Assembly: GCA_017303935.1 (NCBI GenBank)
Contig: JAFLBD010000002.1
Coordinates: 372,001 to 436,000 of the forward strand
Reading direction: 5' to 3'
Source of the DNA: Armatimonadota bacterium
GTDB lineage: Bacteria > Armatimonadota > Fimbriimonadia > Fimbriimonadales > Fimbriimonadaceae
Length of the DNA stretch: 64,000 nt
The position numbers and the translations under genes were made by a program. Of the stretch, positions 57,092-64,000 are shown in pieces; position 1 is the stretch's first letter; the number at the start of each line of letters is the position of its first letter. The notes beneath the pieces are model-generated. The model had not been told where the DNA came from. It worked only from the letters and a program-made list of their open reading frames with translations, and made no database searches.

Positions 57092-57495
57092 GCGAGCGCG
57101 TTTTCGATGTCGCGAGCGAATCCGACATGTTGCAACTTGGAGCGGCGCTCGCCAAAGAGTGGCAGACGGGTGATTGCGTGCTCCTCATTGGAGACTTGGG
57201 CGCGGGAAAGACGACGCTCGTTCGAGGAGTGTTGCAGTCTTTGGGAGTTGTCGAAGGAGTCCGATCTCCGACTTTCAACTTGATGCAGATTTTTGACACT
57301 CAGCCACCGGTAATGCACGCTGATTTGTACCGACTGGATACCGCCATGGGAATCGGCATGGAAGAGTTCTTTGCAGATCACTTGTGCCTGATCGAATGGC
57401 CCGACCGCGCGGAAGGTTTGGTCGATTCAGAACAGTGCTTCGTGGTCAGAATCGACTTCGCCGGTAGTGGGCGACGAGTAACCGTCAGCCGCTAA
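57088..57495 (+). CDS. tsaE: tRNA threonylcarbamoyladenosine biosynthesis ATPase TsaE
   Basis: 135 aa from the ATG at 57088. Longer readings run inside glcF in another frame and are rejected. The P-loop is GDLGAGKTTLVRG, then the family motif VRSPTFNLMQ, MHADLYRLD and LIEWPDRAEG. It supports TsaB-TsaD in making t6A37 of tRNA. Operon placement with glcDEF is accidental in function. Its stop shares CTAA with the convergent diguanylate cyclase gene. Confidence 0.95.
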   Translation: MSERVFDVASESDMLQLGAALAKEWQTGDCVLLIGDLGAGKTTLVRGVLQSLGVVEGVRSPTFNLMQIFDTQPPVMHADLYRLDTAMGIGMEEFFADHLCLIEWPDRAEGLVDSEQCFVVRIDFAGSGRRVTVSR

Positions 57496-59444
57496 GCCGC
57501 TTCACTCACTTCGGTAATCATCGTCACGATTTCGGGATCAAACCGGGCAGGATCGCGCACGAGTGGTTCGCCTTGATCTTCTGCAAGCGTGATCAGGGCG
57601 GAAAGAACGCGGGCAAGTAACGGGATCTTTTGCGCCTTCATCTGCATTGGTCCGGTGCCGTCGAAGCGCTCGTTCATCGTCATGAGGCTTGGGAGCAACG
57701 GCCGGAATTCAGCGGCCAGTTCCAATGAGCGCATCAACTCGGGATCGTTCTCGGCCATCATGCGGCGATAACCAGGATAGACCTTGATGAGGTTCTCCAA
57801 TATCTGCTGTTGGTTCTTGCTGAGGGCAAGTTGCTCGCTCACATGCTTAGCATACGGCCGCAGATATTCCCACAGCGCATCGCTAATTTTGCGTTCATCT
57901 TCACGCAGCCAATCTTCGAGCCACGAGGTGTCTTCGAGGTCCGTGACCTTCGGCTCTTCCTTAAATTGACCCTCGTAATACACTACGCGATTTCGTCCAG
58001 CCCTCTTGGCCTTGAACAGCGCGACATCCGCAGCCTTCAGCAGAGATTGGCAATCTCTTGCCGTCTCCGGATAGCTTGCGACACCGATTGAGGCGGTCAC
58101 GTGTCTGGAGCGACCATTCGGACTCAAGTATTCGATGGACTCGATGGCACGGCGGAGGCGTTCAGCAACTTCGGTGCTGTAGTGCAGATCTAGACCTGGT
58201 AGCACCGCGCTAAATTCCTCGCCGCCATAGCGCGCGGGAAGGTCATAAGGCCGCAATGTGTCTTTGATCTTCTTGGCTACTTCCTTAAGCACGAAGTCTC
58301 CGGCATCATGGCCTTCTTCTTCGTTGAACGCACGGAAGTGGTCCACGTCGATCATCAAGACGCCGAGCTGGGTGCCCGTTCGCTCTGATTCGCTCACACG
58401 CGAGGTCATGAACTCTTGGAGCGCACGGTGATTTGCAATTCCCGTCATCGGGTCAAAGCTCGCCATACGCTCGACACTCTCGAACATCAACGCGGTGTTC
58501 AAGGCAAGCGCTAGGTGCTCGGCGAGGGTCTCGAACAGCTCCTTCGCTTCCAGGAATCCCGTGTCTTCCTCGCGGCCCACAACCTCCAAAATTCCAATCA
58601 CCTTATCGCCAATGGTGAGTGGCAAGCAACCCATCCCTTTCGGCTTGAGGTAGCAGAATTTTGCTTCCAGCTGGTTTGTGAGCAACCCTTCGCTGACGTT
58701 CGACGTCCAGAACGGTTGCCGCTTCATGGCGACAAGTTCTGCCGTGCATGAAACCTTCGATTCAGGTTCAAGCGTTTCGAGCAATCGGGCGCCTTGCCGG
58801 TTGACGCCGACGTGAGCTTTTAGGTTGAGCTTGTCTTCGTCGGTGCCTTTGCCCCAGAGCAGAACGGCGGCCAGTCCGCAAGCGCTGGCGATTTCGTGGA
58901 CCGCCAGAACGGACAACTCGTCGAGCGTCTGGTGCATGGCGAGGGCTTTGCCGATCCTTCGGAAGAGCTCTGCCGAGCGTGCATTTTGGGTTGAGCTTGC
59001 TCGGATTTTGAGTTCTTCCTGGGCATCGGTCACCAACAGGAGCACATCGCGTGTACGTCCCGCGCGCGAAGAAGCGCTGTAGAACCGATAGCCGTCAAGG
59101 AACAGGCAACCGCCTTCGCCACGTTGCGCAGCAGCTTCAACGAGGTTGGCTAAAGGAGTTTCGAGGAGGGTGGAGCCGGCAGAAAGGAGCTCAAGACGGG
59201 ACGCAAGGCCCCAAGTCCTCTTTATTCTGCCGTAACCGTCGGTCACAGCAACCCCGATCAAGTTCGGATCTAGATTGCTGAGAAGACCTGGTTCCGGAAG
59301 ATCCAATATCAGCTGCTCGCCTTCTGGAAGTGGAACCAATACTGGATATCCTTCCGCCGTCCAAGGCGAAATGCCATCCGTTGTCCTGATTCCTAATTCC
59401 GCAAAGACGGCGTGCAACCACGCGATCTTCGGATTTTCGCTCAA
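57492..59444 (-). CDS. GAF-GGDEF diguanylate cyclase with degenerate HD-GYP-like tail
   Basis: 650 aa from a TTG at 59444. Layout: an unassigned N-terminal region (1-150), a GAF domain (about 165-318), a GGDEF domain (325-490), a linker, and a C-terminal 75 residues resembling the end of an HD-GYP domain. The active site is intact (RYGGEEF, 406-412) and the RxxD product-inhibition site is present (RPYD, 398-401), so c-di-GMP synthesis with feedback is likely. In the tail, ERFDGTGP replaces the HHE-DGxGYP signature and no HD pair is seen, so phosphodiesterase activity is unlikely. No membrane segment; a cytoplasmic signal protein. Confidence 0.9.
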   Translation of the reverse strand: MSENPKIAWLHAVFAELGIRTTDGISPWTAEGYPVLVPLPEGEQLILDLPEPGLLSNLDPNLIGVAVTDGYGRIKRTWGLASRLELLSAGSTLLETPLANLVEAAAQRGEGGCLFLDGYRFYSASSRAGRTRDVLLLVTDAQEELKIRASSTQNARSAELFRRIGKALAMHQTLDELSVLAVHEIASACGLAAVLLWGKGTDEDKLNLKAHVGVNRQGARLLETLEPESKVSCTAELVAMKRQPFWTSNVSEGLLTNQLEAKFCYLKPKGMGCLPLTIGDKVIGILEVVGREEDTGFLEAKELFETLAEHLALALNTALMFESVERMASFDPMTGIANHRALQEFMTSRVSESERTGTQLGVLMIDVDHFRAFNEEEGHDAGDFVLKEVAKKIKDTLRPYDLPARYGGEEFSAVLPGLDLHYSTEVAERLRRAIESIEYLSPNGRSRHVTASIGVASYPETARDCQSLLKAADVALFKAKRAGRNRVVYYEGQFKEEPKVTDLEDTSWLEDWLREDERKISDALWEYLRPYAKHVSEQLALSKNQQQILENLIKVYPGYRRMMAENDPELMRSLELAAEFRPLLPSLMTMNERFDGTGPMQMKAQKIPLLARVLSALITLAEDQGEPLVRDPARFDPEIVTMITEVSEAA

Positions 59445-59523: not shown

Positions 59524-61257
59524 ATGAAGTCACAGATTTTTGCTGGGATTTTTTCGATAGTCCTCCTCCTTTTAGTGGGATGTGGTGGATCGGGAAACGG
59601 CGGCGGGAGTAACACGATTTCTTACCGCACGAACTGGAACAGCACGAGTGGCAGCCAGATTGTCCAGATCACAAATCTCTCGACTTCTGCGATGAGTACC
59701 CGGCTCATCAAGTCGACGGATGTTGACGAGATCGGCGACTTTGGTGGACTTGAAAACGGACGCTATCTGGTCAAGGTCACACTTCACTCGGACATGACCG
59801 GATCGAGCCCATCCTTAGGCGAAATCACTGCAATCATTCAGCCCACTGGCACGGAAACGTTCGTTTCTGAAGTTGGTGGGGTGAACACCGATATCGTCAT
59901 CACGCCTGGTGTGAGCATCATTCCTCAGGGTACGACCCAGCAATATGCCGCTCATCTCGTTGGTGCATCTGGCAAGGCCCACTTTGCCTCACCGAGCCAA
60001 TTGACTTTCTCGGCGAATGGAAACGTGACTGTTGATGCGAGCACGAAAATCGCGCTTGCAGGTTCACCCGGCAGTGGCAACTTGGTGGTCAACTACGGCC
60101 CAGATTCGCTAACAAAAACCTTGCCGATCACCGTCACGGCGACTGGTACTACGACTAGCGAATGGACGATCTTGGTGTACATGAATGCGGCCAATGATCT
60201 CTATCCTTATTCGACCCTAAACATGAACCAGATCGAAGAGGTCGCAGGGAATCCAAATGTTCGATTCGTGGTTCAGTGGAAGCAGTCGCAGTCGAATTTC
60301 CCATCCAGCACTTTCAACGGAACTCGGCGGTATCTGGCGAAGCCTGATGTCACCAACAACATCGCCAGCCAGCTTGTCCAAAACATGGGCACTTCAGTCG
60401 ATATGGGTTTGCCCTCGACACTTGCCGACTTCATCTCCTGGGGTAAGGCCAATTACCCGGCAAATCGGTACGGATTGATCGTCTGGAATCACGGGAACGG
60501 CTGGCAACGAAGTGCGAATTCAACTCGGGCCGTCAGCTACGACGATCAGACTGGGAACGCAATTCAGATTTATCAGCTCGACAGTGCGCTCGGATCGAAC
60601 CACTTCGACTTTTTGGCGTGGGATTCTAGCTTGATGCAAATGCTCGAAGTAGCCTACGAAGTTCGATCAAATGCGGACTACGTGATCGGTAGCGAAGAGA
60701 GTCCTCCGGGCGAAGGGTATCCGTACGACGACGTCTTTAGACCGTTTAGGGACAATGCGACGGCCAGCACTCGAAACCTTTCAAAGTCGTTTGTCGATGG
60801 AATGGTTAACGATCCTCGGTACACCAGCCGAAAGATCACTCAAAGCGTGATTGAATCATCCAAATTGCCAGCACTGGCGAATTCTGTAAGTGAACTCGCC
60901 GTTACTTTGATCAACCGCCGAAACCTGATTCTTTCGACGCTGGCAGACATCCGCGCGAATGCTAAGAGCTTCAGCCAAACCGGAGTGCGAAAGTACTACG
61001 ATCTTGGCGACATTTGTACTCGGCTAAAGAATGCGCCTGGGATGCAAAGCGATGTCGCCGGTGCTGCGACTCAGGTGCTCGCCGATTTGGACGATGCGGT
61101 GGTTTGGGAAGGGCACAACGCTCAATCCCTTGGCAGCACTGGGATTGCGATTGACTACTCTACCGGCGGGCTATTTACCTCGTTGCAAACCGATTACAAT
61201 CCACTGAAGCTCGCGATCGATACATATTGGGACGAATGGCTCCGAGTTAGCCCATAA
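59524..61257 (+). CDS. Clostripain-like (C11) peptidase-fold lipoprotein lacking the catalytic cysteine
   Basis: 577 aa from the ATG at 59524 (MKSQIFAGIFSIVLLLLVGC, lipobox Cys20). An ATG at 59455 would bury the lipobox. The N-terminal 220 residues are Ser/Thr/Gly-rich with Ig-like character. The C11 domain begins at EWTILVYMNAANDLYPYS and contains the His motif WNHGNGW (His323). The nucleophile motif, normally DACLM, reads DSSLM here (Ser369), followed by EVAYEV and the conserved SEESPPGEGYPY. The peptidase is therefore probably inactive or altered. It is a surface or periplasmic lipoprotein by inference. Confidence 0.87.
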   Translation: MKSQIFAGIFSIVLLLLVGCGGSGNGGGSNTISYRTNWNSTSGSQIVQITNLSTSAMSTRLIKSTDVDEIGDFGGLENGRYLVKVTLHSDMTGSSPSLGEITAIIQPTGTETFVSEVGGVNTDIVITPGVSIIPQGTTQQYAAHLVGASGKAHFASPSQLTFSANGNVTVDASTKIALAGSPGSGNLVVNYGPDSLTKTLPITVTATGTTTSEWTILVYMNAANDLYPYSTLNMNQIEEVAGNPNVRFVVQWKQSQSNFPSSTFNGTRRYLAKPDVTNNIASQLVQNMGTSVDMGLPSTLADFISWGKANYPANRYGLIVWNHGNGWQRSANSTRAVSYDDQTGNAIQIYQLDSALGSNHFDFLAWDSSLMQMLEVAYEVRSNADYVIGSEESPPGEGYPYDDVFRPFRDNATASTRNLSKSFVDGMVNDPRYTSRKITQSVIESSKLPALANSVSELAVTLINRRNLILSTLADIRANAKSFSQTGVRKYYDLGDICTRLKNAPGMQSDVAGAATQVLADLDDAVVWEGHNAQSLGSTGIAIDYSTGGLFTSLQTDYNPLKLAIDTYWDEWLRVSP

Positions 61258-61547: not shown

Positions 61548-61973
61548 ATGAGCAATGAAACCACTCCGACGCCGACTAAAGAGAGTCCAGACGTTGCGTC
61601 GATCTCCGGTGGCGAAGACAAGGACTCACAGTTTTCAGCAGCTTCAGCTGCTTCGCAGATTTTGCGCGACAAGGAAGGAGACGTTCGACCAAAGGGCCGA
61701 CGCCGCCGAAAAGTCAGCTATCTCACCCTTCAAAAGATTGATCACGTGGACTACAAGGACGTGGCAATTCTCAAGCGATTCCTGAACGAGCGCGGCAAGA
61801 TGTTGCCAACACGCCAGACCGGAAACACCGCAAAGCAACAACGAATGGTTTCTATCGCCATCCGACGTGCGCGAGAAATGGCTCTGCTTCCGTTTGTTGT
61901 GATCGATCCACCAGCCGATCGGCCATTCAAGCCACGTACTCCACGCGGCGACCGACATTCCGACAGCAACTAA
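61548..61973 (+). CDS. rpsR: 30S ribosomal protein bS18 with long N-terminal extension
   Basis: 141 aa versus about 75 in most bacteria. The S18 core begins near residue 51 ([20 protein letters not shown]) and includes [19 protein letters not shown] and the [20 protein letters not shown] helix. The first 50 residues are acidic, Ser/Ala-rich and probably disordered. The last 20 are Pro/Arg-rich. It stands alone with its own promoter and terminator; the usual partners rpsF, ssb and rplI are absent here. Confidence 0.92.
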
Positions 61974-62275: not shown

Positions 62276-63382
62276 CTATTGATTGGCGAATTCTGCGATA
62301 AAGTTTGCACTGGAAGTGAGCGCCGCATCGGGCTTGACCAACTCTCTCAATTCGGCCATTTTTTGGGTTTGAGCCTGCCGCTCTTCGCTTCCGGGGTCCA
62401 AAAGCAGGGTCAGCCAGTTTGCCATTGCTTCTGAGCTGGCTTCATGCTGAATGAGCTCAGGGAAAGCGCGTTCTTGCAGGATCAAGTTCGGCATGCCGAT
62501 GTGGTCAAACTTCGGCCGGACGATTTTGGCCTCAAATTCCATCATTTTTGAACCCTTGTAGACGATCGCGAACGGGCAGCCACAGAGCGCGGCCTCGAGC
62601 GTGGCAGTGCCCGAGCATACAATCGCCGCCGCCGCTGTCCGCAGCACCCAATAGCGATCGCGGCTGAGAACGAGTTCCGCCGTACCGTGGTAGTGACGCT
62701 GCCACAATTTTCGGATCTCTTCGTCAGAGACTGTGGATGCAACCGGAATCAGAATTCTGTCGATCTGCGAGAGCTTCTCGCAGGCCGCGGCCATCGCGGG
62801 CAATGTGTAGTTGATCTCATGGAGTCGGCTGCCAGGCAAAAGCGCAACCGTGGACTCAGACCGAATGACTTCTTGATGCGACTGATCAACAAGCTCTAAG
62901 ATTGGGTGTCCGAAGTAATGCACTTTTGCGCCCATTTCGGCGAGGATGTCTCTCGACCACGAAAACGGCGTGATGATCGCATCTGTGATGGTGGGCAAAT
63001 CCCGGCCCTGTTTATGCCTATTCCAACTCCCAGGAGGGATGAAGTACACCACTTTCCAGCCGTATTGCTTCGCCAGCCTGCAGAGCCGGACATTGAGATA
63101 TCCGAAGTCGATCGGAACGAAGATTCCAGGGGAGCCAAACCGGAGGGCGTGTTTCGCGGCCAGCATTCCAGAGTAGATCGTCGGGACTCGCTTGAGGGAC
63201 TCGATGATGCCGATTGCGCCCCACCGGCTAGAATTCGCGACCAGCTTGATGCCGCTTTCATCCGAAAATTTGCCGCCGATTCCTTCGAAAAGTGCTGTTG
63301 GGAACTCGGAACTGAGTCGTCGAACGAGTTCGGAGGCGTACACGTCTCCGCTGGATTCACCCGCCGAAAAAAAGAATCTCAA
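62276..63382 (-). CDS. lpxB: Lipid-A-disaccharide synthase
   Basis: 368 aa. It joins UDP-diacylglucosamine and lipid X to make the lipid A disaccharide at the inner membrane. Motifs are FFFSAGESSGDVYASELVRR, FEGIGG, VYFIPPGSWNRHKQGR (in place of the common YISPQVWAWR), TPFSWSRDIL, FGHPILE, LLPGSRLHEI and CSGTATLEAALCGCPF. The start overlaps the lpxA stop by four bases. Confidence 0.94.
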   Translation of the reverse strand: MRFFFSAGESSGDVYASELVRRLSSEFPTALFEGIGGKFSDESGIKLVANSSRWGAIGIIESLKRVPTIYSGMLAAKHALRFGSPGIFVPIDFGYLNVRLCRLAKQYGWKVVYFIPPGSWNRHKQGRDLPTITDAIITPFSWSRDILAEMGAKVHYFGHPILELVDQSHQEVIRSESTVALLPGSRLHEINYTLPAMAAACEKLSQIDRILIPVASTVSDEEIRKLWQRHYHGTAELVLSRDRYWVLRTAAAAIVCSGTATLEAALCGCPFAIVYKGSKMMEFEAKIVRPKFDHIGMPNLILQERAFPELIQHEASSEAMANWLTLLLDPGSEERQAQTQKMAELRELVKPDAALTSSANFIAEFANQ

Positions 63383-64000
63383 GGTTGATCGCCGCGACCG
63401 TTCTTTCCAGAAAATCTTCGTTGCTCAAACTGCAACATGTACTCAACTTCGGGAGTCAATTCGACGTCTCGCCGGACAATTTCCATCGCGTGAGTGAGCC
63501 CGAGTTGACTCTTAAAAAGAAGCTTGACTGCCTTGTGCAAAGACCGGCGGGCATCCTGAGAGACCCCGATTCGGCGCAGGCCCACAGCGTTGATATCGGC
63601 GACGTGATTGTCGCCTTCCACGATACAAAATGGCGGGACATCGCGTGTGATTCTAGCCATGCCGGCAACCATGGAAGATCGCCCGACGCGGGTCCATTGG
63701 TGAATCCCCGCCATGCCACCGATGTTCGCCATCGGCTCGATGGTCACGTGTCCTGCGCACCCAACATTATTGGTGATCGTCACGTCGTCGGTGATATTGC
63801 AGTCATGCCCAAGATGGACAAAAGCCATCAAATAATTTCGATCTCCGACGGTAGTCTGCTTGCCAGGATATTTGGACCGATGGATCGTGACGTATTCGCG
63901 GATTACATTATCGTCGCCAATGATCACATAGCTCGGTTCTCCTTCAAATCGGCGGTCTTGCGGATCACCACCGAGAATCGCACCTTGCAGGACGCGATTA
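63379..64000 (-). CDS. lpxA: Acyl-ACP--UDP-N-acetylglucosamine O-acyltransferase LpxA, 5' end beyond window
   Basis: The reverse frame is open to the right edge, so the N-terminus is missing; 206 codons before the stop are visible. It is a left-handed beta-helix hexapeptide-repeat enzyme. The visible part starts within LQGAILGGDPQDRRF, matching the substrate loop of LpxA, then IREYVTIHRS, the catalytic His region MAFVHLGHDC, and NNVGCAGHVTIEPMANIGG. The C-terminal helical domain follows. It performs the first step of lipid A synthesis. It is coupled to lpxB by a 4-bp overlap. Confidence 0.93.
   Translation of the reverse strand, partial: NRVLQGAILGGDPQDRRFEGEPSYVIIGDDNVIREYVTIHRSKYPGKQTTVGDRNYLMAFVHLGHDCNITDDVTITNNVGCAGHVTIEPMANIGGMAGIHQWTRVGRSSMVAGMARITRDVPPFCIVEGDNHVADINAVGLRRIGVSQDARRSLHKAVKLLFKSQLGLTHAMEIVRRDVELTPEVEYMLQFEQRRFSGKNGRGDQP

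Follow-up and report, generated by a model that had tools for sequence, protein, structure and literature searches.

A clostripain-fold lipoprotein of Armatimonadota with serine at the position of the catalytic cysteine

The locus and its lipoprotein

The window, by which the whole analysed stretch of 64,000 nucleotides is meant, carries an open reading frame for a predicted lipoprotein with a C-terminal domain of the clostripain (C11) fold, the one C11 match of its genome. The gene, its active-site codons and its neighbours are listed below.

57492-59444, minus strand: GGDEF diguanylate cyclase (TIGR00254), head to head with the C11 gene
59455-61257, plus strand: open reading frame of 600 amino acids, predicted lipoprotein with C-terminal C11-fold domain
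59524-59583, plus strand: signal peptide with lipobox LLVGC, ending in the codon of the presumably lipidated Cys
59605-60138, plus strand: N-terminal all-beta region (model residues about 28-205, AlphaFold2 model)
60160-61254, plus strand: C11 (clostripain-fold) domain, residues 236-600 (PF03415, model confidence, structure match)
60490-60492, plus strand: His346 (CAC) in the WNHGNGW motif, equivalent of PmC11 His133
60526-60528, plus strand: Arg358, aligned with the autocleavage residues of PmC11 and clostripain
60622-60624, plus strand: Asp390, S1-pocket Asp (PmC11 Asp177), two residues before the nucleophile position
60628-60630, plus strand: Ser392 (AGC), in the column of the catalytic Cys (PmC11 Cys179) by sequence and alignment
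60700-60705, plus strand: Ser416-Pro417, signature coupled to Ser392; Pro417 aligns with PmC11 Thr204
61548-61973, plus strand: ribosomal protein bS18 of 141 amino acids with long extensions at its ends; TIGR00165 matches 52-117 only
62276-63999, minus strand: putative lpxB and lpxA

Active-site residues are numbered here in the 600-residue frame. To judge from the signal peptide, the ATG at 59524 is the more likely start and would give a protein of 577 amino acids. If translation begins there, the lipobox Cys, which all 20 aligned family proteins share, is encoded by TGT at 59581-59583, and the protein would be exported and lipid-anchored. The putative lpxB and lpxA genes would suggest an outer membrane in this organism, hence an outer-membrane place for the lipoprotein.

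The AlphaFold2 model of the full-length protein has a mean pLDDT of 87.4, and a separate model of the C11 domain one of 93.5. The domain is predicted to adopt the clostripain-type caspase-like fold: its model superposes on clostripain (9cip_B) with a Z score of 42.7 and an rmsd of 2.0 over 351 residues. The Pfam profile of peptidase family C11, PF03415, matches residues 241-555 (E 1.6e-46) with 160 bits for a cut-off of 25.8. In contrast, the NCBIfam equivalog for clostripain proper (TIGR02806) gives the window protein 58 bits for a cut-off of 550, and the Cys-containing relatives L069 and L015 likewise stay below it, at 60 and 73 bits.

The window protein shares with clostripain and PmC11 (MEROPS C11, clan CD; PF03415) the fold, the His-Gly motif, the S1 Asp and a basic residue at the self-cleavage position. 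Unlike them, it has Ser at the nucleophile position, the pair Ser416-Pro417, an N-terminal beta region and a lipid anchor. The catalytic His lies in its His-Gly motif (His346-Gly347), within the WNHGNGW sequence that the first-pass annotation of this DNA had described as kept, and Asp390 takes the place of the S1-pocket Asp. Arg358 is a candidate self-cleavage residue, since it aligns with those of PmC11 (Lys147) and clostripain (Arg190) (PMC4850288); the loop residues just before it, 351-355, have pLDDT values under 50 in the domain model. What is missing is the nucleophilic Cys, which in C11 belongs to a D(A/S)C motif (PMC4850289): the window protein reads W-D-S-S-L-M (D390-S391-S392-L-M), that is D-S-S.

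The same annotation had recognized a C11-fold lipoprotein with its catalytic Cys changed to Ser, and the sequence, the PF03415 match, the lipobox and the AGC codon all agree with it. It had also denied that a misalignment was involved. Indeed, alignment with the PDB sequence of 3uws chain B sets Ser392 opposite the catalytic Cys of PmC11 and runs without a gap from the Ser392 column to the S1 loop, where PmC11 Thr204 is listed among the residues of the S1 pocket (PMC4850288); misalignment is rejected by this gapless stretch together with the fold match. Another Cys acting as nucleophile in its stead is rejected as well, in line with the annotation, the only Cys of the 600-residue frame being residues 9, 43 and 521. 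A Cys directly before the Ser (D-C-S-L) is found in 15 rows, for instance L031, L032 and L058, of a 97-row family set that counts the window gene twice (Q and L001) and includes duplicate records; with 15 of 97 rows, this Cys is rejected as a general substitute nucleophile.

Distribution and conservation of the serine form

In 233 distinct C11 rows, the nucleophile column holds Ser in 158, Cys in 74 and Pro in one, with no Ala, Gly or Thr; a substitution as frequent as this is far from a chance event. All 158 Ser rows are from Armatimonadota, the phylum of the window. There, a search gave a match in 202 of 291 genomes, and C11 genes were read from 176 of these 202; the query with the window protein and the choice of loci with a Ser profile favour Ser forms in these counts. 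The sets grew in steps. The first set, of 148 rows, has 28 Cys rows that include two fragments of one protein (the Cys copy of genome G011), a later set with 69 Cys rows also contains three re-fetched loci, and all five redundant rows were removed from the 233-row set. The Pfam profile matches all 41 Ser-form domains that were scanned with it.

A C11 match is present in 76 of the 85 genomes of the window's family. Sixty-five of the 76 have the Ser form only, five have both forms (G011, G045, G046, G047, G073) and six have the Cys form only (G007, G009, G010, G013, G016, G022). The first-pass annotation had proposed that orthologues with Cys would point to a strain-specific mutation. Such orthologues do exist, in small number and in three cases at an unchanged chromosomal position. 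Being nested in Ser clades and different in the S1 loop, however, they are read here as exchanges of the nucleophile. As the Ser form is present in 70 of the 76 genomes, the survey of orthologues rejects a strain mutation or a sequencing error. Three genus mates of the window genome (G039, G040 and G041) have no C11 match at E 1e-5; two of the three are draft genomes under 90% complete, and G039 is 95% complete.

Beyond the phylum, a scan of contigs gave seven outside loci, all with Cys. The Bdellovibrio-type phylum was searched in 368 genomes, of which 139 matched. The Ser form is absent from the 32 newly read loci of that phylum, from L185, the second C11 gene of one genome, and from five plasmid loci, all of which have Cys; this reading covers the higher-scoring matches of the Bdellovibrio-type phylum and five of the 59 plasmid records of one search. 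The genome of L041 (G291), a record titled Lysobacteraceae, falls into the same phylum group as the Bdellovibrio genomes in the genome search, so that this title may be a misassignment. None of 25 pattern matches among viral carriers is a relative.

Within the Ser rows, further positions are kept. His346 is present in all 157 Ser rows with a letter at this position, and Asp390, Glu398 and Pro418 each in 158 of 158, over sequences whose pairwise domain identity goes down to 25% (120 Ser rows of the first set). Arg358 is found in 148 of 158 Ser rows, and an Arg or Lys in 27 of 74 Cys rows, so that the fold itself does not need this residue. Its surroundings are variable: at positions 352-357 the commonest residue reaches at most 67 of the 120 first-set Ser rows, and Arg358 reaches 113. 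Seven Cys proteins are placed among Ser forms by the 96-row tree; six of them also keep Arg358, the Cys copy of G011 having lost it. Asp363 is common to both forms (156 of 158 Ser rows, 74 of 74 Cys rows), and no acidic column specific to Ser rows was found in the first 148 rows.

Two positions of the S1 loop go with the nucleophile. Ser416 is present in 158 of 158 Ser rows versus 4 of 74 Cys rows, and Pro417 in 156 of 158 versus 1 of 74. Only three columns of the first 148 rows, 392, 416 and 417, combine conservation of at least 90% among the Ser rows with a share of 30% or less among the Cys rows. When the columns of the 96-row set are ranked by their difference in frequency, the one that follows is far behind, at 0.62 versus 0.95-1.0. 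Exceptions are the Ser forms L247 and L249 (f17), which have Glu417 (S-E-P) and altered motifs (SDHGAGV, DASEMSE), and L241 (f18), a Cys form with Ser416-Pro417 (S-P-P).

Exchanges between serine and cysteine

The history of the site was followed on trees. After a first FastTree tree, an IQ-TREE tree of 96 of the 148 rows was built without columns 392, 416 and 417, one short Ser row and the two fragments being dropped and similar rows thinned; its bootstrap had not fully settled. A wider 'quick' tree has 118 of the 233 rows, after thinning of similar rows and removal of the Pro row and of any row shorter than 250 residues. On the 96-row tree, Cys rows lie inside Ser clades, and eight changes between Ser and Cys are needed, at least six of them forced by starred branches. 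A single origin of Ser, as one Ser clade, is rejected on this tree (AU p 7.3e-5, with a long-branch warning).

Independent pairs on starred branches of the same tree show position 417 changing with 392 in 6 of 6 cases (p 0.031) and position 416 in 5 of 6 (p 0.06). On the 118-row quick tree, with five starred pairs, 417 is in step in four or five (p 0.06-0.13) and 416 in three or four (p 0.13-0.25). Statistical support for a coupling of the changes is thus modest, though the association in the counts is strong.

Two classes of codon encode Ser392, with AGY prevailing in some families and TCN in others, and on the 96-row tree the class changes at least seven times among Ser rows. As single-step routes from one class to the other lead through Cys or Thr, it is plausible that Cys was an intermediate or that Ser arose from Cys repeatedly.

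Particular loci illustrate these exchanges. Genome G011 carries a Ser copy next to a Cys copy as a tandem pair with 63% identity, and a Cys protein of family f21 shares 65% identity with a Ser protein of that family. The arrangement of the window, with a divergent GGDEF gene upstream, recurs at 48 of the 71 family Ser loci with room upstream (loci that include a few duplicate records of one genome), and Cys orthologues occupy the same GGDEF position in three genomes, G010, G013 and G022, the last of which also has bS18 downstream. This shared position is absent at 9 of 13 family Cys loci, two of which, L015 and L069, are among the nested ones. That the nucleophile is swapped between proteins so alike in other respects would be easier to understand if both forms work. 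A different fate is seen in G213 (L223:2662-4143), where a tandem C11 copy directly after a Ser copy has His346 replaced by Thr, Pro at position 392 and no ESPP loop. This second copy, a single example, looks like a true pseudoprotease.

A serine enzyme or a binding protein

The first-pass annotation had left the choice between a pseudoprotease that binds basic peptides and an enzyme with a serine nucleophile. The comparisons lean towards the latter, in the manner of an indication and not of a proof, and they bring elements that the annotation did not have: the phylum-wide range of the Ser form, the coupled Ser416-Pro417, the kept Arg358 and the nucleophile exchanges. We consider, with a probability of about 0.5, that the window protein is a working Ser-His enzyme, probably a self-processing peptidase specific for Arg or Lys. 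In this mechanism, the loop ending in Arg358 would hold the protein as a zymogen until self-cleavage after Arg358. Ser392, activated by His346, would then attack peptide bonds after an Arg (or Lys) bound by Asp390. Ser416 and Pro417 would reshape the wall of the pocket and so give the oxygen, a weaker nucleophile, adequate placement or activation; it may be imagined that Ser416 hydrogen-bonds into the Ser-His pair. The several exchanges of Ser and Cys within the phylum, mostly together with the S1 loop, would fit a nucleophile-tolerant active site. The likely role of the enzyme would be the breakdown or trimming of extracellular proteins without an oxidation-prone thiol.

The principal alternative, possible though on the doubtful side, is a dead clostripain fold anchored at the surface and binding Arg/Lys peptides in its acidic pocket, as a sensor, adhesin, carrier or inhibitor. 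Ser392 would then be kept because it fits and hydrogen-bonds in a binding site, and the conserved Asp390 suits binding as well as catalysis. Several precedents argue in this direction and against a serine enzyme, because the Cys-to-Ser cases found in the caspase fold are reported or presumed to be inactive. The C136S mutant of the C11 peptidase PNT1 did not support viability (PMC4850289). TbMCA4, a clan CD metacaspase in which Ser naturally takes the place of the Cys, has been termed a pseudopeptidase (PMC6657590) and is reported to be processed by an active relative, another metacaspase (PMC6657590, PMC6426788). Tyr-Ser orthocaspases are presumed dead (PMC6426788). Outside this fold, SERA5 of Plasmodium has Ser at the catalytic Cys site of a papain fold; it has been shown to be non-enzymatic, can bind peptides, and becomes active when its Ser is made Cys (PMC4671257), which indicates that binding alone can keep a Ser at the site of a Cys protease.

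These parallels hold in part. TbMCA4 resembles the window protein in its fold and in its natural Ser for Cys, but 65 of the 76 family genomes here are without a Cys C11 partner, which makes the role of a decoy for an active C11 partner unlikely as a general one. TbMCA4 is, nevertheless, reported to be processed by another metacaspase, and cleavage in trans is therefore conceivable for a conserved site as well. The pseudo-orthocaspases likewise combine a bacterial caspase fold, Ser for Cys and a retained acidic pocket; in them, however, the catalytic His is also replaced (PMC6426788), whereas His346 is kept here.

The pattern of conservation argues for the serine enzyme and against a binding protein. 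Ser is widespread and stable, the site holds only Ser, Cys and one Pro, and the invariant His346 and Asp390 accompany it. Loss of the His is seen in no Ser row with a letter there, and at least seven changes of codon class took place with no Ala, Gly or Thr left at position 392. In a variable and poorly modelled loop, 148 of the 158 Ser rows retain the Arg of the putative cleavage position. Cys rows inside Ser clades, including those at the same chromosomal position in three genomes, would require repeated switching between binding protein and protease. The sole clearly decayed copy (L223) lost His, nucleophile and ESPP loop together. Finally, TEV protease provides a precedent for a Cys protease regaining near-normal activity with Ser: the exchange cost about 10^4-fold, and evolution recovered near-wild-type activity (PMC4576821). 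The likeness consists in a Cys-to-Ser exchange of the nucleophile with compensating changes, both being tolerated; the difference is that this was laboratory evolution on a chymotrypsin fold (PA clan). Against the serine enzyme weigh the lack, in the first 148 rows, of an acidic residue specific to Ser rows, the coupling to 416/417, which is not absolute, the 9 of 13 family Cys loci away from the shared GGDEF position and the Cys copy of G011 without Arg358. The orientation of the His would be the key structural question, since in serine triads its N-epsilon almost always points towards the nucleophile (PMC9825947); the main text of that paper contains no mention of caspase, legumain, gingipain, clostripain or clan CD.

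An active serine hydrolase of other chemistry (esterase, amidase, peptide ligase or transpeptidase), its S1 loop remade for a new substrate, is unlikely. At the thresholds used, the columns coupled to Ser392 all belong to the S1 loop, which fits a change of substrate, and the clan includes legumain-type relatives that are ligases, according to the titles of their structures. Against this reading stand the S1 Asp, found in all 158 Ser rows, and Arg358, kept in 148 of them; nor does any further column separate Ser from Cys forms at these thresholds. A strain-level mutation or a functionless relaxed remnant would be a natural reading of the substitution taken alone, as it appears in the window, but Ser in 158 of 233 rows, the invariant His and Asp and a lipobox Cys in 20 of 20 proteins make it highly improbable.

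Clan CD is described as one of His-Cys or cysteine peptidases (PMC12445089, PMC4357240, PMC4850288), a 2025 review of MEROPS places it among the Cys clans (PMC12445089), and a survey of C11 retained eukaryotic sequences by their Cys motif (PMC4850289). Among the literature matches listed, where subscription journals are thinly covered, Ser forms of C11 are undescribed in titles and the opening parts of abstracts, and queries joining Armatimonadetes with clostripain, or clostripain with a serine nucleophile, gave no match. In prokaryotic metacaspases, the residue that most often replaces the catalytic Cys is reported to be Ser (PMC3501461); with such natural members in a related clan CD group, Ser forms of C11 would not be wholly unprecedented. 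A looser parallel comes from a family centred on Cys, in which one protein of the YafK fold hydrolyses beta-lactams by means of a serine, but of a serine at another position (PMC13400389). It is tempting, though somewhat short of an even bet, to regard the proteins of Armatimonadota as naturally occurring serine peptidases of the caspase fold (clan CD), the first of their kind, with repeated Ser/Cys changes that mostly accompany the Ser416-Pro417 switch.

Annotation by profile, which matched all the Ser-form domains scanned, would label these proteins cysteine peptidases. Even if the Ser forms are dead, they make up a sizeable family of pseudoproteases in which the catalytic His is invariant and a signature is coupled to the Ser, one that goes unmentioned among the literature matches listed. 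The Ser/Cys pairs at 63% and 65% identity are natural matched proteins for testing the use of serine by this fold, and they also bear on what the two residues of the S1 loop contribute.
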